Under the pieces are notes generated by a model, which made no database searches, had not been told where the DNA came from, and was given only the letters and a program-made list of their open reading frames with translations. The translations under genes were made by a program, and so were the position numbers. From Candidatus Ferrigenium bremense (lineage in GTDB: Bacteria; Pseudomonadota; Gammaproteobacteria; Burkholderiales; Gallionellaceae), in the NCBI GenBank assembly GCA_019449635.1, contig JAGRPI010000023.1, forward strand, positions 124,001 through 188,000: a stretch of 64,000 nucleotides of DNA. The letters are read 5' to 3'. Shown piece after piece: positions 383-10,456 of this stretch (the first letter of the stretch is position 1; each line of letters opens with the position of its first letter).

Positions 383-620
383 GTGTCTCTAAAAATTCAG
401 AGTTCGCCCAAATGCAAGGCGCGGGGAACATTTGCGAGCATCCGCTGCGCGGATTGCCTGCTTACCCCACTTCGTAGCGCCGTATATGATGTATATATTA
501 GCAAGAAATTTTCTACGCAACGCAACATAACCAGCGACTTGGCTGTCGCCGTTTGACAGCTTAGTCGAATGGCTAGTAGTTTCATCAGTTGGGATGAAAT
601 CTGGATTTTAGAGATGCCCT
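380..620. repeat. Family C element with a family A repeat nested inside
   Basis: The segment is bounded by near-perfect inverted ends: AGGGTGTCTCTAAAA at the left, and at the right the complement of AGGGCATCTCTAAAA. Its body contains a CAAGGCGC motif shared with the elements at 60510-60655 and 62074-62218. A complete 62-bp family A hairpin lies inside at 527-588, so the element is composite. The right end overlaps the last codons and stop codon of prlC (608-610). The 243-base gap between the flanking genes holds nothing else that I can recognise. Confidence 0.6.
527..588 (+). repeat. Family A 62-bp hairpin repeat, copy 1
   Basis: It begins ATAACCAGCGACTT and ends GTAGTTTCATCAG, with inner stem arms GGCTGTC and GACAGCT around a GTTT-containing loop. 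It is one of nine copies in the window (see findings). Confidence 0.8.
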
Positions 621-2650
621 GAAGTTTCGAGTAGCCCATTATGCCGCAACAATGCGTCGATGCTCGGCTCGCGCCCGCGAAACGACTTGAACGAGTCCAT
701 CGCGCCGCGGCTGCCGCCCATCGCCAGTATCTCGGCGCGGAAGCGCGCACCGACATCCGGGTTCAGCACGCCGTTTTCCTCGAACAGGCTGTACGCATCG
801 GCGGACAGCACCTCCGCCCATTTGTAGCTGTAATAGCCCGCCGCATAGCCGCCGGCAAAGATATGCGAGAAGCTGTGCGGGAAGCGCTGGAACGCGGGCG
901 GGATCAGCACCGCCACTTCGGCGCGCACTTCGTCGAGCAGTTGCAAAATGGATTTCGCGCCGCCCGCCTCGAAGTTGCTGTGCATCAGCATATCGAACAG
1001 CGAAAACTCGATCTGGCGCAGGGTCTGCAGGCCGCTCTGGAAATTCTTCGCGGCGAGCATCTTGTCGAACAGCGCGCGCGGCAGCGGTTCGCCGCTATCG
1101 ACATGGCGCGTCATACCGCGCAGCACGTCCCATTCCCAGCAGAAGTTTTCCATGAACTGGCTGGGCAGTTCCACCGCGTCCCATTCCACGCCGTTGATGC
1201 CGGACACGTCGAGGTCTTCCACTTCGGTGAGCAGGTGATGCAGGCCGTGGCCGAATTCGTGGAACAGGGTGATTACCTCGTCGTGCGTAAACACGGCGGG
1301 CTTGCCGCCGACCGGCGCGGAAAAATTGCAGTTCAGGTAGGCGACCGGCGTCTGGATGCCAGTCGCGAGACGGCGGCGCGTGATCACGTCGTCCATCCAC
1401 GCCCCGCCGCGCTTGCTGTTGCGTGCGTACATATCGAGATAGAACTGGCCGACCAGTTGCCCCTGCGCGTCGCGGATGTCGAAGAAGCGTGCATCGCCGT
1501 GCCACACCGGCGCGCTGGCGGTACTGATCTGCAAGCCATACAGCGTCTCGACCAGCTTGAACATGCCGGGCAGCACCGCGTCTTCCGGGAAATACTGTTT
1601 CACTTCCTGCTCGGAAAATGCGTAGCGTTTTTCGCGCAATTTTTCGCTGGCGTAGCCGATGTCCCATGACTGCAATTCCTGCAAGCCCAGCTTGGCGCGC
1701 GCGAATTCGCGCAATTCCGCCAGATCTTTTTCGGCAAAAGGCCGCGCACGCTGCGCCAGTTCGCGCATGAACCCGGCCACCTGCTGCGGCGAATCCGCCA
1801 TCTTGGTCGCCAGCGACAATTCGCCGAAGTTGGCGAAGCCCAGCAGGCTCGCCTCCTCGCCGCGCAGTTTGACGATCTCATCCATCAGCGCGGTGTTGTC
1901 CCACTCAGCCTTGCCGAATTCGCTGGCGCGCGTGCCAGAGGCGCGATACATCTTTTCGCGCAACGCGCGGTTGTCGGCGAATTGCAGCACCGGCAGATAG
2001 GATGGCGCCTTCAGCGTGAACAGCCAGCCGGTTTTGCCCTTCTCTTCCGCTGCCTCCTGCGCCGCCTGCAGCACGTCTTCCGGCAGGCCGCTAAGGTCGT
2101 TCCTGTTTTCAATGACCAGCGTGTAATCGTTGGTCGCATCGAGCAGGTTGTCGGAAAAACGCGACGACAGCTCCGCCAGGCGTTCCTGGATTTCCAGATA
2201 GCGCGCCTTCTTATCCTCCGGCAACTCCGCGCCGCCGAGACGGAAATCGCGCAGCTCGTTCTCGATGATCTTCTTGCGCGCCGCGCTCAAGCCCTCGAAT
2301 TCTGGGCCGTTGCGCAATGCCTTGAATTTCCCGAACAGCGCAAGGTTCTGGCCGAGCTCGGCGTAATACTGAGTGATCTTCGGCAGCGTCGCATTGTACG
2401 CTTCGCGCAACTCGGGCGAATTCATCACTGCGTTCAAATGCCCGACCGGTCCCCACGCGCGCGACAGCCGTTCGTTGGCATCTTCCATCGGCACGACGAA
2501 GTCCTGCCAGGTGGGCGGCGTCTTCTCCGCCAGCAGGCGCGCGATCAGCGCACGGTTCTCCGCCAGCAACTGATCGATCGCCGGCGCGACGTGTTCGGGT
2601 TTGATCTCCGCAAAGCGCGGCAGACCGGAGAAGTCGAGTAGTGGGTTCAT
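608..2650 (-). CDS. prlC: Oligopeptidase A (M3 family zinc metallopeptidase)
   Basis: This is a cytoplasmic M3 metallo-oligopeptidase that degrades short peptides, including cleaved signal peptides. The 680-residue length is normal for PrlC. The zinc motif HEFGHGLHHLL is intact, preceded by the family-typical FTHDEVITLF. The start MNPLLDFSGLP was chosen over an upstream in-frame Met (2692) because it matches the usual N-terminus, although no good Shine-Dalgarno is visible. The C-terminus departs from the family: after DALLRHNGL the last residues and the stop codon are read from the end of a family C repeat. It stands alone, between the repeat and the Dnd-like operon. Confidence 0.95.
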   Translation of the reverse strand: MNPLLDFSGLPRFAEIKPEHVAPAIDQLLAENRALIARLLAEKTPPTWQDFVVPMEDANERLSRAWGPVGHLNAVMNSPELREAYNATLPKITQYYAELGQNLALFGKFKALRNGPEFEGLSAARKKIIENELRDFRLGGAELPEDKKARYLEIQERLAELSSRFSDNLLDATNDYTLVIENRNDLSGLPEDVLQAAQEAAEEKGKTGWLFTLKAPSYLPVLQFADNRALREKMYRASGTRASEFGKAEWDNTALMDEIVKLRGEEASLLGFANFGELSLATKMADSPQQVAGFMRELAQRARPFAEKDLAELREFARAKLGLQELQSWDIGYASEKLREKRYAFSEQEVKQYFPEDAVLPGMFKLVETLYGLQISTASAPVWHGDARFFDIRDAQGQLVGQFYLDMYARNSKRGGAWMDDVITRRRLATGIQTPVAYLNCNFSAPVGGKPAVFTHDEVITLFHEFGHGLHHLLTEVEDLDVSGINGVEWDAVELPSQFMENFCWEWDVLRGMTRHVDSGEPLPRALFDKMLAAKNFQSGLQTLRQIEFSLFDMLMHSNFEAGGAKSILQLLDEVRAEVAVLIPPAFQRFPHSFSHIFAGGYAAGYYSYKWAEVLSADAYSLFEENGVLNPDVGARFRAEILAMGGSRGAMDSFKSFRGREPSIDALLRHNGLLETSGHL

Positions 2651-2872
2651 GGATGAGCTGGAAATAAATACTGCGGTGGGAAATCTGACCATTACATTTT
2701 ACTACGAAATATTTTGGCAATAACCCGGCTTGTATCGGCCAATGCGCGTCTGTTCAGAATTAAAAACGAAGCAGACGCTAAGGCCTCTGTTTTATTGATT
2801 CGTTCGCTTGCGACTAAGAAAACAATTCGAATTTGGCGACTTTAATTTTTTATCAATGTTAGAGATAAAAGC

Positions 2873-4105
2873 TCACTCTATCGCAGACTGAATTGCTTTT
2901 CTAATTGTTGACCGGCCCGAGCCTGAAGCATTACGGAAGCTATCGGCTGCAAAATCGATTGACCCAGCTGGCTTGAGCTTTTCGGAGAAATAAGCTGCAC
3001 TGATATTGCGCTGATCATATGCATCCCTAGCAAGCGTCCGGAGAATATCAAATAGCGCCTGCACCCCAACCGTTTTTGTGATGAATGATCCTGACGATGC
3101 GTTTTTCCAGAAGACTGCTTCACAAGCGCTCAAGTAGTTCAAAGTCATCGTATAGATCACCGCGTCACTATTCGACAAATACACGTCTCGTAATGGGGAT
3201 TTGTCTTTTCGCGTACTTTCAAGCTCGCTACGCCTTCTGCGTTGACCTTCAAGTAAATTAGTGCTGTCTTTCTTTGGGTTGCTGGTATAGAGGCGCATGA
3301 TACCTTCAACAATCACAGCCGTTGAAACCTTCCAGCGTGCGCCTTCAGCTAACCGCGCAAGCGCCGAATCCTTTTTAGGTGCGATGACAATTCGCCCTTT
3401 AAGCGGTGATTTTTCATCTGTGCCAAGCCTACGTGTAATAAATACGGCCAGCTTATCTGGGCTCCAAAAAGACTCTTCTTCCTCTTCTACGTTGTAACCG
3501 AATAACTCATATGTCAGGCTCTTATCTACCGGTTTTTGCGTTGAGTTGATCGTAGCGAACAAGTAGGCTTGGAATGGCTTCGGTAGATCAAGAAATATTG
3601 AGCAAATTAGATTCATATCGAGCCGCTGTGGTTTCGCGTGCGCAAAAGAAAATAAGCGATGCTGGCCGTCAATAATGGCAGCAAGTTTTGCTCGGGTTGG
3701 GATGCGCAAGGTGCAACAGTCATCGCCCTCCTCAATGGCCCACCTGTTATTTGGTATCCTTTGCCCCGATGCATCCTCTTCGTCCTCATCCTCAATGAGC
3801 CCATCTTCTTTTCTGTAATTCGCTGCCAAGATGATGGAGTTGGGAAAAGCTGAGTCAGCTCGATTGATGTAGTCAGCGATTACCTGAAGCCGCTTAGGCT
3901 GCACCAAGCGCTGAGTTCCATCCAATTCGTAGCACCCTTCTTTCTCAATCAGACTCGCGCTCAAAGCATCACTGAATGCCACTTCTAACAGCAAACGAGC
4001 CGGTAGAATTGCAACGTAGTAGACACCGATAGGTTGTTCTACTCTTAGCGCTTTTACTTCTATAGGGAATTTTATTTCAGAAACCATACTAGAAGGTAAA
4101 GCCAT
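2873..4105 (-). CDS. DGQHR-domain protein, DndB-like
   Basis: This 410-residue protein carries the signature DGQHR at residues 146-150 (AIIDGQHRLFSF), followed by a NSTQKPV-like segment, as in DndB and related DGQHR proteins. In canonical Dnd systems DndB binds DNA, represses the dnd operon and modulates phosphorothioation. Here it is the last gene of the operon rather than the first. The start at 4105 has a GGGAG Shine-Dalgarno at 6-base spacing and overlaps the preceding membrane-protein gene by 17 bases. A second ATG (4087) directly follows that gene's stop. An acidic run (EDEDEED, about residues 106-111) is notable. Exact role in this variant system is inferred. Confidence 0.75.
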   Translation of the reverse strand: MALPSSMVSEIKFPIEVKALRVEQPIGVYYVAILPARLLLEVAFSDALSASLIEKEGCYELDGTQRLVQPKRLQVIADYINRADSAFPNSIILAANYRKEDGLIEDEDEEDASGQRIPNNRWAIEEGDDCCTLRIPTRAKLAAIIDGQHRLFSFAHAKPQRLDMNLICSIFLDLPKPFQAYLFATINSTQKPVDKSLTYELFGYNVEEEEESFWSPDKLAVFITRRLGTDEKSPLKGRIVIAPKKDSALARLAEGARWKVSTAVIVEGIMRLYTSNPKKDSTNLLEGQRRRRSELESTRKDKSPLRDVYLSNSDAVIYTMTLNYLSACEAVFWKNASSGSFITKTVGVQALFDILRTLARDAYDQRNISAAYFSEKLKPAGSIDFAADSFRNASGSGRSTIRKAIQSAIE

Positions 4106-4634
4106 CTAAGTCTCCCGACAAATCGGCATCTTTATTGCCGCCAAGCGGTGCGTCTGGATCAATATCAAGAAAATCTTTTTGTTTAGCATTGGCAATCCAC
4201 CAAATCCACAGCGCAACAATGGATGAGAGAAACCCTAATAGCAACGCAGAACTATTCCCAACTGCGGCTGGAGAAATTGCCAAAGCGATTACCGTCGTAA
4301 GACAAAGAAACAAGATACCAAATGCACGAAGTGACTTTTGATGGCTCTCTGCCCATACCAACTGCAAGCAAGCAGAACCTGCCAAGGCGGGGAAAAACGT
4401 GATGACCGAAGTTCTTAATGCGGATACTGAGCCTTCTTGCGCCGTGGATGGTGAGGCAAAAATTAAATAACTATATAGCTCAATCCAGAATCCGATTCCG
4501 CCGATGACGATTACCGCAACCACAAAATAAATTACGAAGCTCGCATGAGAAAACGGCTCAACTGATCGCTTTTTTAGCTCCCGCCACAACTCAACCCATG
4601 AGCCACCTTGGCGTTTTATATGATCCTCAGTCAC
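4089..4634 (-). CDS. Four-helix membrane protein of the Dnd-like operon
   Basis: I do not recognise the family. The 181-residue protein has a charged N-terminus, then about four hydrophobic helices near residues 33-55, 76-92, 104-122 and 128-147, and a soluble acidic C-terminal tail rich in Asp and Gly. The GTG at 4634 is preferred over an in-frame GTG at 4640 because AAGGAG lies 5 bases upstream of it. It sits 56 bases after the DndE-FtsK gene and overlaps the DGQHR gene. Membrane effectors are common in defence operons, but an effector role here is only an inference. Confidence 0.7.
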   Translation of the reverse strand: MTEDHIKRQGGSWVELWRELKKRSVEPFSHASFVIYFVVAVIVIGGIGFWIELYSYLIFASPSTAQEGSVSALRTSVITFFPALAGSACLQLVWAESHQKSLRAFGILFLCLTTVIALAISPAAVGNSSALLLGFLSSIVALWIWWIANAKQKDFLDIDPDAPLGGNKDADLSGDLDGFTF

Positions 4635-4690
4635 GGGCACTCCTTACTTCTTAAGTTATCTATCATGTACGGCACAGTGCAAAATCGCTG

Positions 4691-6241
4691 TTAATGTGCG
4701 CGTGCTGACCGCTCTCTCAATACAGCTTCAATATCAGCCCTTGTGGCTCTAACTCCATGCACGCGATCTGCTTGCCCACCCGGTTTTGCTTTGACCAACA
4801 TATCACCTGCACCCAGTAGTAATTCAGCACCAGTTTCATCCAGAATGATATTTGATTCGGTACTTTTCTGTACTGTCAGTGCTATCCGTGCGGGTATATT
4901 ACTGCGAATTAATCCAGAAAATGTCTTAGCGTCCGGGCGTTGAGTAGCAAGCACAAGGTGGATACCTGCAGCACGTGCTTTTTGAGCCAACCTAATTATG
5001 TGCCCCTCAATATCTTTGTCCTGCATCACCAAATCAGCGAGCTCCTCTATAAAGACAACTATGTAAGGAAGTATCAAACCTTTTTTTCTGGCCTCATAAA
5101 TATTACTGACGCCGGACGCCATGAAAGTTTGGTATCTTGCTTCCATCTCGACGACAAGTTCAAGAATAAGCTCCCGCGCTGTGTCTACATCAGTAGCAAT
5201 GTCTCCACCATAGAGATAGTTGGAATTCTGATATGTTGAAAATTCAACTTGTTTTGGGTCAATTAGTGCGAGCTTCAGCATGGTTGGAGGGAGTCTTAAA
5301 ATCATTGACAAAATAAGCGAATGCAAACATACGCTCTTGCCGCTACCAGTGGTGCCTCCGACAAGCAAATGTGGGGCTGCTGCCAAATCAAATGAATATG
5401 GATTGCCAAGTACATCAACGCCTGGAAATACTATCAATTTCTCATCATCAAAAGGAGTGGATGCTACCCATTCACGTAGTTTTAAAAATGGAATAGAAAG
5501 CCATGTACTCTGCGGTCGCGGCACATCAAGGTTCACCGTTTTTGCTTCATCACCATGGGTTATGGTCGGTTGAGCACCTTGAAGATTTAAGGAAAGACTT
5601 AAACGCTCTAGGCCACGTCGAAGCTTATCTAGCTGATTAATATCTGAAAGAAAAACCTTGTAACGAGTTACACGAGGTCCATGAGTAAGCACCTTTATTT
5701 CAACCGCCACTCCAATATCAGCTAATGATTTCAATAGCTGTGCCGAATTATCTTGTGGCTTTTCAACCTTTGTATTGATGTCTTCTTTCTTTCCATTACT
5801 TGCAGCTGCCACATCAGGTAGCTCAGCGCGCCGAATGATCAGGGTTTCTAAGAATTTATCGAAATTCCCATCTGATGCTTTCCAGTCTTCCATTAACAAG
5901 GTAGCACCACGATGCCAATGCTTCCTAACAGATGCGCGGAAAGCATCCATCGATTCAAGCCGTTCATTTCCATATATCTTGGCATGAGCAACTATCAACC
6001 CAACCCAAGCCGTTATATCTTCATGAGTAAAGAGTACAGCAGCAGGTATCTCAAGCCCCTTTGCATCAACACCGTCAACTGTTAAGGCTCCAAGAGCTAA
6101 CGATCGACCAATGGCAAGACGTGCAACATTAGCCTTCGTAGACAGCCCCAAACTTGACATCAGCGCAACAGTAATACGGTCAGCTTCCGTACTTGTACGA
6201 TAACGCGAATTCATTATCTGTTGAATGGACAAATCACTCAT
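4691..6241 (-). CDS. DndE-like domain fused to FtsK/SpoIIIE-type DNA translocase motor
   Basis: The 516-residue protein has two parts. Residues about 10-145 begin YRTSTEADRITVALMSSLGL followed by SLALG, resembling DndE (DUF1832), the small DNA-nick-binding component of Dnd systems. Residues about 165-245 resemble the FtsK alpha-beta region (THGPRVTRYKV). The RecA-like motor follows, with Walker A GGTTGSGKS (295-303), LALIDPKQVEF (324-334), VVFIEELADL and the ATQRPDAKTFSG motif. There are no transmembrane helices and no FtsK gamma domain, so this is not a chromosome-segregation FtsK. The start codon overlaps the dndD stop (ATGA), indicating translational coupling. The FtsK call is certain; the DndE call rests on a short motif match. 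Confidence 0.8.
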   Translation of the reverse strand: MSDLSIQQIMNSRYRTSTEADRITVALMSSLGLSTKANVARLAIGRSLALGALTVDGVDAKGLEIPAAVLFTHEDITAWVGLIVAHAKIYGNERLESMDAFRASVRKHWHRGATLLMEDWKASDGNFDKFLETLIIRRAELPDVAAASNGKKEDINTKVEKPQDNSAQLLKSLADIGVAVEIKVLTHGPRVTRYKVFLSDINQLDKLRRGLERLSLSLNLQGAQPTITHGDEAKTVNLDVPRPQSTWLSIPFLKLREWVASTPFDDEKLIVFPGVDVLGNPYSFDLAAAPHLLVGGTTGSGKSVCLHSLILSMILRLPPTMLKLALIDPKQVEFSTYQNSNYLYGGDIATDVDTARELILELVVEMEARYQTFMASGVSNIYEARKKGLILPYIVVFIEELADLVMQDKDIEGHIIRLAQKARAAGIHLVLATQRPDAKTFSGLIRSNIPARIALTVQKSTESNIILDETGAELLLGAGDMLVKAKPGGQADRVHGVRATRADIEAVLRERSARAH

Positions 6242-8310
6242 CTGCGTCCCCTAGCGAAATACTTACCTTCTTTGGCAGTTGTCCTTCCGACACCATCGCC
6301 AACATCAATATGCTCAAGGAGATAAGTCTTGCTAACACTATCTGAAATATCTTTATAGAAATGGAAATCAATTTCCTCATCTTGCGACAGCAGAATCACT
6401 TGGCGACTCTTATTCTCTGTCCAAAATGAAAGAATATTAGCTCGATGTTTGCTATCTAATCGGCCAAGCGGCGTATCAACAACCATTGGAGCCTTTACTC
6501 CTGAGACTTTTGCCAATCCCGCAATCAATGCCGTAGCAAAAATTTGATTTTCACCAGCGGATCTATCAAAAGAAATTTCTTTCCCTGTTTTGCCAAGAAT
6601 TTTAGTGACGCCATCATCGGCAATTTCGATTCTATCAACCTGATCCTTGTGGGCCAGGTTCTTGTAGACAACAGTCATTGCCTTAGCTAAGGCACGAACT
6701 TTTAGCGGGAATAGCGCGGGAATAACCTCATCAATTACCGCACGAACTCTTTCAGACTTATCGATGATCGACCTAACCGGACTTGATCTGTCCAGTTCAT
6801 TTTTTCCTCTCTCATACTCAGCACGCATTTGAGCAACTTGTGATTCAAGAGTAGACATCTTTCGATCATCTATCCGAACATACTCACCCAATTCATCTAG
6901 TTTTAATTGCACTTCCTCTAATTGTTTTTTCAAGGATGAAAGGGTGCCATCTCGATCAATGCCTTCCAATCTAGAAATCTTCCGGCCTAGCTCATCTGTT
7001 CTCTGCTGAAGATTATGCTGCTCATTAAGAAGGTCATGAATTTCCTTCTGGCCAAGATTGATCGTATTCAAAAAACCAAGTGCCTTGCTACGCAATGATT
7101 CATGCAGATAATCATGAACAATCTCTTTGGCACAATCGTTAGGTGGTGGATAAAACAATGTTGCCCAAGCGGATTCCATGCGTTTCTTAATCGCACCCAA
7201 CTGCTCCTCAGAAAGCGCGGGGTTAATGCCAGGCTCAGTTTGAGCCATAAACGCTGACTCAAACTGAGCTTTTCTCGGTTCAAGTGTCCGCTTCTCCGCA
7301 TCCCAATCGAACCATTTAATTTCAGAAACTAGTTGATGACGAAATTCGTCCATTAGCTCTTTAGATACCAAATGAAATGGCAATCTTCCAGACAAAATTT
7401 CTTCCAGTTTTTTATGGCTATCTCTCAGGCTATTCCGAATTTGCTCGCGCTCTTCCACCAACTCCTTAACAGTCGCAATATCACCGCCGCCACCACCTGC
7501 CGATGTTATGCGTTCGACCAGAGACTGCTGTTCCGCGCGCAGCTGATTTTTTTGTGCTTCTTTACTTTTAGTATCTTTCTGAAAGGCATTTAACTGCTCT
7601 TGGCTTCTGGTTAATCCCTCTAACAACCGATCCAAATTATCTTCGTCAACAGACTTAATTTCTCCTCGCTTTAAGCCTTCGAAGCTTTTCAATCTGTCTG
7701 CAAGTGAGCGAAGCAGCACAACGCCCAGTAAACCCTCCAAACCTTGTTTGACCTGCTCGACCCGTGATTGATCGGCCAGCTTTTTAACTTCTTCTCCATC
7801 GAAAAAGAAGAATGGTGCTATATGTGCGGGAACAAATATTTCATCTAACAGATCGGGTAGGTAAAAACCGTTCTTTCCGTCAATTCGTGGGGTATCAGGG
7901 ATATCACGGCTAACGTCTCTTACTACTGTTTCCTCTTCCCCGGTCCAGTTTCCGTTAGTTCTAAAATACCATTTGCGACAAATATCTACCGCTTTTGTTT
8001 TTGTCTTGTTAATGACTACTCGAACCATCATCGTGTCGGAGCCATCACGCTTTGCTTCGCCGTTGAAAGCACGCTCTAAAAAAGTTGGGTAGCCTTTTTT
8101 GTCGTCAGTATTTAATCCGGCGCGTGCCAAATGGATAATGGCATCCTTGCCGTAAAGACAAAGATATAACGCTTCAAGTATGGAGGTCTTGCCAAAGCCG
8201 TTTAGCCCACCGATGAGCACAATGTTTTGCCCATCGCTCGGCTCTGGAAACTCAAAAGATTGATATTTGTAGCTTTTCAAACAAGTTAGTTCTAACTTCG
8301 AAATCCACAT
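6238..8310 (-). CDS. dndD: DndD-like SMC/Rad50-type ATPase
   Basis: The 690-residue protein has the split ABC ATPase layout of DndD: Walker A GGLNGFGKTS at residues 34-43, a long central coiled-coil region with many charged heptads, then the ABC signature SAGEN (584-588) and Walker B MVVDTPLGRLD (609-619). In Dnd systems DndD is the ATPase that supplies energy or DNA remodelling for phosphorothioation. A GGGAGG Shine-Dalgarno precedes the ATG at 8310. It overlaps the next gene by four bases. The final residues (GKYFARGRR) are basic. The family assignment is strong; the modification chemistry is inferred from the neighbourhood. Confidence 0.9.
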   Translation of the reverse strand: MWISKLELTCLKSYKYQSFEFPEPSDGQNIVLIGGLNGFGKTSILEALYLCLYGKDAIIHLARAGLNTDDKKGYPTFLERAFNGEAKRDGSDTMMVRVVINKTKTKAVDICRKWYFRTNGNWTGEEETVVRDVSRDIPDTPRIDGKNGFYLPDLLDEIFVPAHIAPFFFFDGEEVKKLADQSRVEQVKQGLEGLLGVVLLRSLADRLKSFEGLKRGEIKSVDEDNLDRLLEGLTRSQEQLNAFQKDTKSKEAQKNQLRAEQQSLVERITSAGGGGGDIATVKELVEEREQIRNSLRDSHKKLEEILSGRLPFHLVSKELMDEFRHQLVSEIKWFDWDAEKRTLEPRKAQFESAFMAQTEPGINPALSEEQLGAIKKRMESAWATLFYPPPNDCAKEIVHDYLHESLRSKALGFLNTINLGQKEIHDLLNEQHNLQQRTDELGRKISRLEGIDRDGTLSSLKKQLEEVQLKLDELGEYVRIDDRKMSTLESQVAQMRAEYERGKNELDRSSPVRSIIDKSERVRAVIDEVIPALFPLKVRALAKAMTVVYKNLAHKDQVDRIEIADDGVTKILGKTGKEISFDRSAGENQIFATALIAGLAKVSGVKAPMVVDTPLGRLDSKHRANILSFWTENKSRQVILLSQDEEIDFHFYKDISDSVSKTYLLEHIDVGDGVGRTTAKEGKYFARGRR

Positions 8311-8330
8311 ACGCCTCCCTGCGATGATTC

Positions 8331-8546
8331 TTATTCGATTACGCCAAGAATTTCTTCAAACCTTAAATTAATACCATGCGCACGTTCTTGATGCTGCCGC
8401 TCTCGCTGAACCATTACAAGTTCAGTGATAACTTCAACTGGAATATTGTGCTCAGCGCAGACCCCTTCTAGGAGCGTCTGAGCCTCGGCATCTGCCCATA
8501 GTGGAAGGTCGTTTAGATAGTTGTCATCCAAAATATTTTCATCCAT
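8331..8546 (-). CDS. Small acidic Dnd-associated protein
   Basis: This 71-residue protein is acidic at the N-terminus (MDENILDDNYLNDLPLW) and has a predicted helical body with a basic run (QRERQHQERAH). It lies between dndC and dndD. Its ATG (8546) overlaps the end of dndC by 8 bases, so it is probably translationally coupled. A TTG at 8549 is an alternative start. It is too short for canonical DndE, and a better DndE candidate is the N-terminus of the FtsK fusion. I recall small proteins in this position being described only as DNA-modification-system-associated; the function is unknown. Confidence 0.7.
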   Translation of the reverse strand: MDENILDDNYLNDLPLWADAEAQTLLEGVCAEHNIPVEVITELVMVQRERQHQERAHGINLRFEEILGVIE

Positions 8547-9678
8547 CAACCAATCCCTTTTCTTGCTGAAGTTCTGTTGTCCAATGTTGGTATATCAAAT
8601 CAAGCTCTCTCTCTGAGATAAGCGCTTCTCCGAATTCTTCTTGAACCTTAAGTAGTGTTTCAAGGATCATTTTGCGAGCTTGAATTGTGAATGGGCCAGG
8701 AATATGCTTTCCGTTCAAATCAAAAGTTAATCGGCCATTACGTCGATATGCCTGTCGATACTCAGGTTTATTGCGAATGTCTCTCAACATATCGCGGAAA
8801 TCAACCAATGGTTTGTATTGATGCTTACCCGCGTCAATAAACCCCTGCAAGCTTTTATCTTTTTCTACAACGGTACAAGTCCAGCATCCGAAACGGCTAT
8901 TGGGCGTACCGCATCCAGGCGCTTCTTCTTTACTTAAAACTACTGGGCACTCTCCACCTTCCGCGTCTCGATACAACTGAAAAAGATCAGCATGAGTGCC
9001 CCCCCAAGGCGCAGGATACGTTCCCAGAATTTCCCAAACATCATCAGTGGTAAGGTTAACAATTGGCCGATAAATGTAAGCACCAAGTAGCTCTGGATGC
9101 TCGGCTAGATTTGTACCACGAACGTTTCTGTGTCGGCCAATCGATTGTTGACGTGAGCTACTTTCGTCGCGCCGTACCCCGAGCAGCACGATGGCTGCTC
9201 CATATTGGGAAATGTGCTGCTTGATGTAACCACTAGTGGGCTGAATTTTTAATCGGTCAGTACACCACCTCATGGTCATATTTGGACTTGGATATCCCTT
9301 CCCGATTAATAGCACCCAAAAAGATTGATCTATCTCGGGTGTAGTTCTGGCTACTGTAATCGGCAAACCAAGATTTTCAGCGGCTTGTTGAATAATCTTT
9401 GTGACTTTATCGAGATGCGCAATTACCAAAGGGCTTTCTACAAGCGTGTCGTTTGACACAATGTGAACCGGTCTCGTCCTGCGAGATGGAGGAACGGACA
9501 TCAATGCCTCAAAAACCCCATGAGCAACCACGGTGCTATCTTTTCCTCCAGAGAACCCAATAATCCAAGGAAGGTGATGAGTCTCATCTAGATATTCCTG
9601 CCGAATATCTTGCAATGCCTTATCCCAATTCATTAAGGCAGTTTCGGCACTGTTAAATTGAATATTTACGTTTGCCAT
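8539..9678 (-). CDS. dndC: DndC-like PAPS-reductase/ATP-pyrophosphatase family protein
   Basis: The 379-residue protein carries the PP-loop SGGKDST (residues 43-49) of the PAPS-reductase fold. It has five cysteines suited to an iron-sulfur cluster: C139 in RWCTDRLK, C244 in GECPVV, C256, C265 and C268 (GCGTP to GCWTC). In Dnd systems DndC activates the DNA backbone with ATP and transfers sulfur. It is shorter than many DndC proteins, which I recall as about 500 residues. It is the first gene of the operon, with a promoter candidate at 9705-9733. The ATG at 9678 has only a weak Shine-Dalgarno. Confidence 0.9.
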   Translation of the reverse strand: MANVNIQFNSAETALMNWDKALQDIRQEYLDETHHLPWIIGFSGGKDSTVVAHGVFEALMSVPPSRRTRPVHIVSNDTLVESPLVIAHLDKVTKIIQQAAENLGLPITVARTTPEIDQSFWVLLIGKGYPSPNMTMRWCTDRLKIQPTSGYIKQHISQYGAAIVLLGVRRDESSSRQQSIGRHRNVRGTNLAEHPELLGAYIYRPIVNLTTDDVWEILGTYPAPWGGTHADLFQLYRDAEGGECPVVLSKEEAPGCGTPNSRFGCWTCTVVEKDKSLQGFIDAGKHQYKPLVDFRDMLRDIRNKPEYRQAYRRNGRLTFDLNGKHIPGPFTIQARKMILETLLKVQEEFGEALISERELDLIYQHWTTELQQEKGLVDG

Positions 9679-9751: not shown

Positions 9752-10117
9752 TCACTCCCGCACCGGGTCAATCACGCTCACCACGCGCGCGACGATTTCG
9801 CCTGTTGTGGCTTCGTCCAACGTTTCGACGTATTCCGCCGAACCTGCGCGGGTTCTGGCTTCCAGGTCAAACGTGCGCACCTGGTTGCAGACCGCGACGC
9901 CGTTGGTGTCGTGCCCGCTCACCGCAACCGTCAGGCCCATCTCGCGCATGGCCGCGCCGCCACTGGTGATCGGAACCAGCATGGCAACGCCGAGTGCGTT
10001 GATTTCTTTCGGGGTAATGACGACGAAGCGATGCCGGTCTTTCATTTCGCGTCCCGCAACCGGGTTTGGATTCACCCAGTAGACATCGCCCTGCTGCGGG
10101 ACGCGGCGGCGGATCAT
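9752..10117 (-). CDS. MazF/PemK-family mRNA interferase toxin
   Basis: The 121-residue protein has the MazF/PemK fold signatures: an N-terminal QQGDVYWVNPNP strand, HRFVVITPKEIN, LVPITSGG and the QVRTFDLEAR segment. Such toxins cleave mRNA at short sequences. The ATG overlaps the antitoxin stop by four bases, as in typical antitoxin-first pairs. The gene ends 73 bases upstream of dndC on the same strand, so it may mark the edge of the acquired segment. Confidence 0.88.
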   Translation of the reverse strand: MIRRRVPQQGDVYWVNPNPVAGREMKDRHRFVVITPKEINALGVAMLVPITSGGAAMREMGLTVAVSGHDTNGVAVCNQVRTFDLEARTRAGSAEYVETLDEATTGEIVARVVSVIDPVRE

Positions 10118-10380
10118 GCGATCTCGCGCCCTGCCGGTTCACCTTCCCGTGCCCAAGCCGTTTCGGCATTGAGCTTGGCGATCTTTGCGGGGGTGACGCC
10201 CTGCAACAGTTCGGTGAGGGAATAGCGGCGTTTGTTGGCCGCAGGGCGCGCCACCAGAACTCCCTCGGACACGTTCAACTCCAGCTTGCTGCCCACTTCG
10301 ATGTGAAGCATTTGCATCATATTTGCCGGAATGGTGACGACGGCAGCACCGCCTTGTTTGCGCACATTTACGGTTGTCAT
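10114..10380 (-). CDS. MazE/ChpS-like AbrB-type antitoxin
   Basis: This 88-residue protein starts MTTVNVRKQGGAAVVTIPAN, the SpoVT/AbrB swapped-hairpin DNA-binding fold of MazE-type antitoxins, and ends with a toxin-binding tail. The start at 10380 is set by an AGGAGG Shine-Dalgarno 6 bases upstream; the longer frame from 10434 lacks one. It is coupled to the toxin gene. The antitoxin presumably autoregulates the pair, but no clear operator was found. Confidence 0.87.
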   Translation of the reverse strand: MTTVNVRKQGGAAVVTIPANMMQMLHIEVGSKLELNVSEGVLVARPAANKRRYSLTELLQGVTPAKIAKLNAETAWAREGEPAGREIA

Positions 10381-10456
10381 GGCACCCTCCTGTTCATGGT
10401 TGCACTTTGTAGCACTTTTAGATGCGCGGTGCAAGCTCCAATGCTAAACAGCTCCG

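Follow-up and report, generated by a model that had tools for sequence, protein, structure and literature searches.

The last two genes of a six-gene cassette in the window analysed here (64,000 nucleotides of Candidatus Ferrigenium bremense, Gallionellaceae; GenBank assembly GCA_019449635.1, contig JAGRPI010000023.1, positions 124,001 to 188,000) form a module of their own, which recurs beside several kinds of Dnd system. Dnd systems are known bacterial machinery placing sulfur in the DNA backbone (phosphorothioation, PT). The cassette comprises six open reading frames (ORFs) on the minus strand, from 9678 to 2873, encoding DndC, a small protein (SP), DndD, a fusion of DndE with an FtsK-type motor, a protein with four transmembrane segments (TM; the protein is called 4TM below) and a DGQHR protein (DGQHR1). 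As predicted from sequence, a PT-modification system is very probably encoded here, and we consider it about an even bet that the whole is a complete PT cassette of the DndE-motor-fusion kind together with a separately mobile two-gene output module. Of 3416 taxa with a nuclease in their Dnd neighbourhoods, only 806 have DndFGH (PMC10853773). Many Dnd systems are without DndFGH and their output is disputed; the pair of 4TM and DGQHR1, which accompanies many Dnd systems and has been little noticed, may be their output arm, and the constant membrane partner of DGQHR1 makes it a concrete two-gene candidate.

The 4TM and DGQHR1 genes form a module

A scan of 84,980 species genomes for DGQHR1 gave 330 pattern stretches and 232 relatives, and the best 80 were kept, corresponding to 79 loci (54 with DGQHR1 proper, L018-L071, and 25 with remote DGQHR proteins, L072-L096). 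A 4TM ORF abuts the DGQHR1 gene in 52 of the 54 loci, the arrangement ranging from an overlap of 101 nt to a gap of 17 nt (the largest overlaps reflect over-extended start calls); the two exceptions are L054, which lies near a contig edge, and L070, in which the upstream ORF looks like a diverged 4TM gene missed by the profile. When the 4TM profile was run at E <= 1e-3 against the 12,177 ORFs of the loci, all 59 matches (including 7 profile seeds and one plasmid counted twice) stood beside DGQHR1, and none fell in the 25 loci with remote DGQHR proteins. 4TM and DGQHR1 are a two-gene module of their own. The first-pass annotation had taken the six genes as one set, which no longer holds for the last two, found also beside canonical dndBCDE and CxC/Pbe-type systems. 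No mention of a constant four-TM partner of DGQHR1 was found in the literature searched on DGQHR, DndB and transmembrane.

The four-helix membrane protein of the first-pass annotation was borne out by hydropathy, which gave four hydrophobic segments in 52 of the 59 homologues. Lysine and arginine (K+R) make up 18.6% of residues before TM1 and 17.5% of loop 2, against 6.1% of loop 1 and 5.5% of loop 3 (37 rows), and because of this pattern the N-terminus is probably inside; the C-terminal tail is acidic (8.0% K+R, 17.0% D+E). An AlphaFold model of 4TM reached a pLDDT of 86.9 and a pTM of 0.79 (37 rows). HMM searches give family names to five of the six cassette proteins, the 183-aa 4TM protein being the one without: it matched no family at E <= 0.1 in Pfam, PADLOC or PHROGs, and NCBIfam gave one chance-level match. 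Scattered Pfam matches of 4TM members (best E 7.4e-6, no single family in more than 8 of 54 members) were set aside as generic membrane matches. A phage origin was considered and rejected: 4TM had no match in 50,697 phage records, PHROG matches were absent for three proteins, and viral contigs yielded one remote DGQHR locus.

The neighbouring system was assigned for 59 DGQHR1 rows from the genes within the fetched flanks (labels of our own, with a hand-set HerA list, some loci holding more than one system): 17 rows are canonical, 13 CxC/Pbe or PT-restriction, 11 FtsK fusion and 11 HerA fusion, and 7 have none. On the DGQHR1 tree these labels need 25 changes, the least possible being 4 (the DndE remnant was used to place the decayed L050, L054 was excluded because of its length, and three rows sit on long branches, their position unsure). 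Module exchange among architectures is frequent, not free, and no single architecture is followed. A dndC gene lies near the module in 36 of the 54 loci; of the other 18, 11 have one at another place in the genome (47 of 54 in total); three of the remaining seven genomes hold a partial DndD below the cut-off. Among plasmid records, 38 match DGQHR1, 17 of them over at least 80%, and seven plasmid regions opened from two plasmid searches contain the pair in all cases but L011. By reading, the 4TM-DGQHR1 pair in L025:5695-13606 stands alone between Tn3-type transposase/resolvase-like and IS-like transposase ORFs.

Family and predicted fold of DGQHR1

DGQHR1 matches TIGR04172 over its full length (480.1 bits, cut-off 450), a family that a 2011 paper (PMC3226654) introduced as a satellite to phosphorothioation; in the text available from it no mention was found of the four-TM partner seen here in 52 of 54 loci. 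The gene is the last of the operon, not in the first place as for dndB. The first-pass annotation had called the protein DndB-like; the gene is no displaced dndB but belongs to this separate family, with a superfamily kinship to DndB that appears in the match to PF14072 ("DndB"; 38.5 bits, over the cut-off). No DndB model (which we take to be TIGR03233) was among the NCBIfam matches at E <= 0.1, the PADLOC match was to DpdB only, and HMM searches found no nuclease domain in the protein.

In a structural model (pLDDT 88.8, 29 rows), the nine best matches in the PDB were all ParB, Noc or PadC (best E 7.4e-3, probability 0.99), and SspE appeared at E 1.0; the sequence profile had no PDB match at E <= 1. 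The fold, as modelled, is probably ParB-like. GTP hydrolysis by SspE requires its DGQQR motif and is stimulated about threefold by PT-DNA (PMC13251355); a 2015 paper already pointed out that DGQHR and DGQQR domains are alike (PMC4619093). From the ParB-like model, the SspE data and this likeness we infer that DGQHR1 may be a PT-reading switch. It shares with SspE the DGQxR motif and probably the ParB-like fold, and a likeness in working would follow by analogy; SspE carries its own nickase, whereas DGQHR1 is without a nuclease domain by HMM and is paired with a membrane protein.

The small protein as the detached tail of DndC

The window DndC matches TIGR03183 with 371.8 bits (cut-off 290.4), and its SGGKDS loop and cysteines 139, 244, 256, 265 and 268 are invariant in 43 of 43 aligned DndCs, in keeping with the PP-loop and cysteines named by the first-pass annotation. 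In length the 43 fall into two groups: 17 stop at the end of the window DndC (0-8 extra residues) and 26 extend for a further 73-130 residues. In 16 of the 17 tailless cases, a gap of 176-235 nt precedes dndD and a small ORF ends inside it; 12 of these ORFs match the SP profile (65-207 codons, lengths that are mechanical ORF calls, the longest surely over-extended) and four are cryptic (66-67 codons). In the seventeenth, L042, the NCBI annotation of its plasmid places the small-protein gene elsewhere in the locus. For the tailed DndCs, the spacing to dndD is at most 104 nt, with no SP match, in the 24 of 26 measured (L085 and L089 lay outside the spacing measurement).

The small protein matches PF20306 (43.2 bits, cut-off 27.2, E 4e-11) and, weakly, the C-terminal end of TIGR03183, of NF005316 and of two PADLOC DndC models. 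When profiles of 12 distinct SPs, cut to 72 residues, and of 25 distinct DndC tails, cut to 85, were aligned with hhalign, the result was a probability of 97.3, E 1.7e-11 and a score of 57.2; none of 200 column shuffles reached this score, the maximum being 17.9. The four cryptic ORFs match SP at E 9e-7 and the DndC tails at E 3e-7. PbeB-type small proteins were also tried as relatives of the DndC tail and rejected (hhalign E 0.047 to the tails and 0.44 to SP, with only 4 distinct sequences). Because of the profile match, the shuffles and the spacing pattern, we identify the PF20306 protein of this cassette, by sequence comparison, as the separately encoded C-terminal domain of DndC. The first-pass annotation had listed it as a small acidic protein; it is the split-off DndC tail, not an unrelated extra component, and already bears a name in the NCBI annotation ("DNA modification system-associated small protein"). 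A supposed extra protein thereby becomes part of the sulfurtransferase, and the prediction is that DndC works only with SP. The identity of SP with DndC was not mentioned in the literature searched and could stand in the 2020 ABC-ATPase classification that is presumably the source of PF20306. The fusion and the family names are already known; what is added to the prior text found is the SP-DndC identity, the two unlike motors on related DndE domains (below) and the pairing of DGQHR1 with a constant four-TM partner.

Related DndE domains on two unlike motors

The motor of the fusion protein is clear from FtsK_SpoIIIE (155.2 bits, cut-off 24, E 2e-45) and FtsK_alpha (E 3e-5), as the first-pass annotation had it. 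Its DndE-like part was only partly upheld by the window protein, which scores 18.3 bits (E 0.003) against Pfam DndE, under the 25-bit cut-off; 22 of 23 fusion homologues match the model at E <= 0.1 (best E 1.5e-23), and a profile built from 20 fusion N-termini, including that of the decayed L050, retrieves the solved DndE structure 7x4e at E 5.7e-7. Since the homologues match Pfam DndE and the profile matches 7x4e, the N-terminal domain is identified from sequence profiles as DndE. ApaG, the sole other PDB match of this profile (E 0.003), was taken as chance. A free-standing DndE of 142 aa in Mesorhizobium (L042, same plasmid as L016) matches the window domain at E 2.3e-14; counting against the identification, the window domain by itself missed the canonical DndE of L015 and the Pbe-type DndE of L014.

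With the window motor as query, 11 relatives are matched in their motors at E 2e-86 or better, and the cellular FtsK of the host at E 2e-56; ten other fusions, whose motors were labelled HerA-like, are not found at E <= 10. The window DndE domain, by contrast, reaches six of these ten at E 1.1e-10 or better. In the other four (L055, L059, L060 and L064) divergence has gone too far for this, and their motors were found with the motor of L053 at E 1.3e-10 or better. Because the DndE domain crosses the two groups and the window motor does not, we conclude that related DndE domains carry two unlike motors, FtsK-type and HerA-type, at the same operon position, which raises the question of what motor-driven movement adds to PT marking. 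DndE fused to HerA/FtsK motors beside DndD-related ATPases was published in 2024 (PMC10853773), and the capture of such motors by defence proteins is a theme described there. The cassette is thus a real variant, as first noted, but neither its order nor its fusion is new in kind: like the published subset, it joins DndE to a HerA/FtsK-class motor within a single polypeptide, next to a DndD-type ATPase, and it differs from those fusions collected here that carry HerA-like motors in a motor that has an FtsK alpha domain and matches cellular FtsK.

Among plasmid records, 957 match the fusion protein, 7 of them over at least 80% of its length; four among the matches listed show the fusion beside an annotated dndD, two of these being Rhizobium phaseoli strains. 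In the class, one of 369 genomes has the fusion at E <= 1e-60, the window's own (a threshold that would miss HerA-type fusions). Viral contigs held seven relatives of the FtsK motor, with no match extending into the DndE domain, and Pfam found no effector domain in the fusion protein. In five of the 12 FtsK-type loci (L012, L013, L033, L040 and L044), a gene for a TusA-type sulfur carrier directly follows DndE-FtsK, with 4TM-DGQHR1 on the opposite strand.

The ABC-type ATPase

The window DndD matches TIGR03185 with 279 bits (cut-off 245.85) and has a Walker A motif at 35, the ABC-signature-like SAGENQ at 584 (the signature reported by the first-pass annotation) and VVDTP at 610. Speaking against its name, the best PADLOC model is "PbeC", with 969 bits compared with 332 for the best DndD model. 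The cysteines lie only at 10, 51, 111 and 393, without a CxxC or CxC hook, and because the hook is absent and the TIGR03185 score is above the cut-off the protein is kept, on its motifs and profile score, as DndD. The cassette differs from CxC/PbeABCD systems in this lack of a CxC-type hook, and TIGR04095, used here as the marker for their nuclease-helicase partner, had no match over the cut-off in the own genome (two weak matches, 28 and 27 bits, as in 13 of 14 control genomes).

Proposed mechanism and alternatives

Starting from the observed gene content, homologies, DndC split, two motor kinds, 4TM-DGQHR1 pairing and defence-type insertion site, a working model would run as follows. Sulfur would pass to DndC from a cysteine desulfurase, probably the genome's IscS because the cassette has no dndA (IscS scores over the cut-off, 745 bits, outside the cassette; the host genome also has three TusA matches). 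DndC and its detached tail protein, which may bridge DndC and DndD, would cooperate with DndD and DndE in placing sulfur in the DNA backbone; DndE would read the site together with DndD, and the fused FtsK motor would drive the complex along DNA. DGQHR1 would be a ParB-like nucleotide switch that tells modified from unmodified or incoming DNA, coupled to 4TM as a membrane effector or a membrane tether of the response.

We rate an effector role for the module as possible, at somewhat below even chances, the rest being split among regulator, localiser and accessory roles. A bolder reading, held at similar odds, is that 4TM-DGQHR1 may be a self-contained, PT-dependent defence arm in which a ParB-like nucleotide switch senses whether DNA carries PT and then opens or drives a membrane effector of four helices; it would be traded among every Dnd architecture seen, sometimes mobile alone, and would here replace DndFGH and work with a motorised DndE. 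Several results weigh against the working model. On the DGQHR1 tree, the system labels form clusters (shuffled labels need 34.9 changes on average, and 0 of 200 shuffles were as low as 25); neither DndC nor DndD was found in the genomes of L020 (a metagenome-assembled genome), L025, L047 and L061, so that the module may not depend strictly on PT. The Foldseek matches of DGQHR1 are weak, with none at E <= 0.001 and TM-scores by query of 0.18-0.25. For 4TM, nothing convincing was found in the PDB by fold (best E 0.91) or by sequence profile (best E 0.48), and since there is no convincing structural or family match its effector role is guesswork; the inward placement of its C-terminus rests on the even helix count, the K+R content of the tail being barely above that of the outer loops.

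The pair might instead be a membrane-tethered regulator, a DndB-like brake bounding the level of modification. This would suit the PF14072 kinship of DGQHR1 with DndB, a reported regulator of Dnd (PMC4507180), and the position of the window module, which follows the modification genes immediately and in the same orientation; but a separate DndB co-occurs with the module in at least 12 of the 54 loci (L024, L026, L031, L032, L034, L037, L043, L045, L046, L051, L058 and L071, with the DndB copies of L051 and L058 truncated by the locus end), and one would hardly expect a transcription regulator to have a membrane partner, so that we hold this role to be unlikely. Equally unlikely in our judgement is a localiser that would hold the Dnd-motor machine at the inner membrane, where entering DNA is inspected or modified as in Kiwa. 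FtsK-type motors generally work on moving DNA, and the charge pattern of 4TM puts its N-terminus inside; yet the module also stands beside canonical Dnd systems whose DndE carries no motor. PADLOC, which presumably includes Kiwa models, gave no match for 4TM at E <= 0.1 and DpdB only for DGQHR1. Kiwa consists of a membrane-embedded KwaA tetramer and the DNA-binding, non-cleaving KwaB (PMC12904381), likewise a pair of an inner-membrane and a cytosolic DNA-acting protein (DNA action being presumed for DGQHR1); it differs in that the window proteins have no KwaA or KwaB match at E <= 0.1 in PADLOC and that the window module is found with Dnd systems.

It is very unlikely that restriction is carried out by the FtsK motor itself, through translocating and tangling unmodified DNA, with the module as an accessory. 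Motor capture by defence proteins is described (PMC10853773), the HMM searches (Pfam, NCBIfam, PADLOC) found no nuclease family in the cassette proteins, and DndH (TIGR03237), a component of the DndFGH type of system, had no match in the own genome in a search without a matching control (DndF and DndG were not searched); against this, the DndE domain is retained, which argues for site scanning with DndD, and the fusion has no effector domain by Pfam. Eleven of 12 fusion-type genomes searched likewise gave no DndH; the last one, L059, had been included as the positive control and did give a match (E 6e-177, below the curated cut-off). These DndH negatives also count in favour of the working model. 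Just as improbable is that the cassette, as a decaying or silent import, has no function in this host: its low GC compared with the host, the presence of a DndD relative (E <= 1e-30) in only 5 of 76 same-genus genomes, own included, and the decay of the related L050 would fit, but all six ORFs are intact and the motif residues of DndC and DndD are kept.

Insertion site and cassette layout

The cassette is AT-richer than its flanks, as first noted (GC 0.447 compared with 0.615 for opdA and 0.659 for pyrC). The earlier placement between housekeeping genes is right as to the opdA and pyrC edges and incomplete on the dndC side, where a mazEF pair of host-like GC (0.608) comes before pyrC (MazF NF052489, 202 bits; MazE PF04014, 28 bits). 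All 41 genomes searched, the own one among them, contain opdA, and eight same-genus regions of the pyrC-opdA junction were chosen from the well-matching genomes of this set (two from one genome, G403). The junction is empty in four (L111, L114, L115 and L116) and filled with 5.7-6.6 kb in three: a cytosine methylase and an HATPase protein in L112, a methylase, an MvaI/BcnI endonuclease and Vsr in L113, and a ResIII helicase with an Eco29kI endonuclease in L117. In L118 it holds 1.2 kb with a mazE piece beside pyrC. Because restriction-modification-type genes occupy it in three of eight regions, the cassette sits in a junction that takes up such genes. The transfer suggested by the first-pass annotation is probable. 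The mazEF pair was considered as part of the cassette and ruled out by its host-like GC and by the mazE piece at the same site in L118. No tRNA gene was found within the window, and as for marks of site-specific insertion the longest exact direct repeat between the two compared cassette ends is 7 nt, so that such marks are taken to be absent.

Features of the cassette and its flanks (window coordinates)
Feature	Position	Strand	Description	Family
dndC	8539..9678	(-)	PP-loop sulfurtransferase, 379 aa, without the 73-130-residue C-terminal tail of long DndCs	TIGR03183
Small protein (SP)	8331..8549	(-)	72 aa; read as detached DndC C-terminal domain	PF20306
dndD	6238..8310	(-)	ABC-type ATPase, 690 aa, without CxxC or CxC hook	TIGR03185
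DndE-FtsK fusion	4691..6241	(-)	516 aa; DndE (residues ~13-121), FtsK alpha and motor domains	
Four-TM (4TM) membrane protein	4089..4640	(-)	183 aa; first gene of the two-gene module	
DGQHR1 protein	2873..4105	(-)	410 aa; second module gene, probably ParB-like fold	TIGR04172
opdA/prlC-type oligopeptidase	608..2692	(-)	Host gene, one edge of the insertion site; named by sequence reading	
mazEF pair	9752..10434	(-)	Between cassette and pyrC; probably resident, outside the cassette	

The order of six co-directional genes given by the first-pass annotation was recovered, closely packed: dndC and the small-protein gene overlap by 11 nt, a gap of 20 nt separates the latter from dndD, dndD and DndE-FtsK overlap by 4 nt, and a gap of 50 nt lies before 4TM, which overlaps DGQHR1 by 17 nt. 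Scans for promoters (7 promoter-like sites, 11.3 expected) and terminators (9 terminator-like sites, 8.0 expected) were uninformative. Compared with Dnd/Dpt (DndABCDE), the window shares DndC, DndD and a DndE domain with their defining motifs, and differs in that neither dndA nor dndB is in the cassette, DndC is in two parts and DndE is fused to FtsK. The same six-gene order occurs with an FtsK-type motor in L018, L019, L021 and L056 and with a HerA-type motor in L053, L023, L027, L030 and L035, the small ORF being found by HMM in L053 and cryptic in the other four HerA-type loci.

Some further arrangements were seen in related loci. In Mangrovicoccus (L030:2670-4754), dndD is apparently split into two ORFs. 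In L050:9181-9987, a DndE N-terminus and 4TM form an in-frame chimera beside a partial DndD, and L050 is a decayed cassette, probably carrying a deletion scar. Very similar HhH-GPD (endonuclease III-like) proteins occur in the three pyrC-opdA junctions with different fillings, at L112:7593-8291, L113:2195-2887 and L117:1327-1773 (assigned by HMM for the L112 copy only), adjoining different restriction-modification genes; the L117 copy is short, and the window cassette has none. An HNH endonuclease is annotated upstream of dndC in Rhizobium phaseoli (L013:4279-5193), a possible restriction-partner candidate for an FtsK-type cassette.

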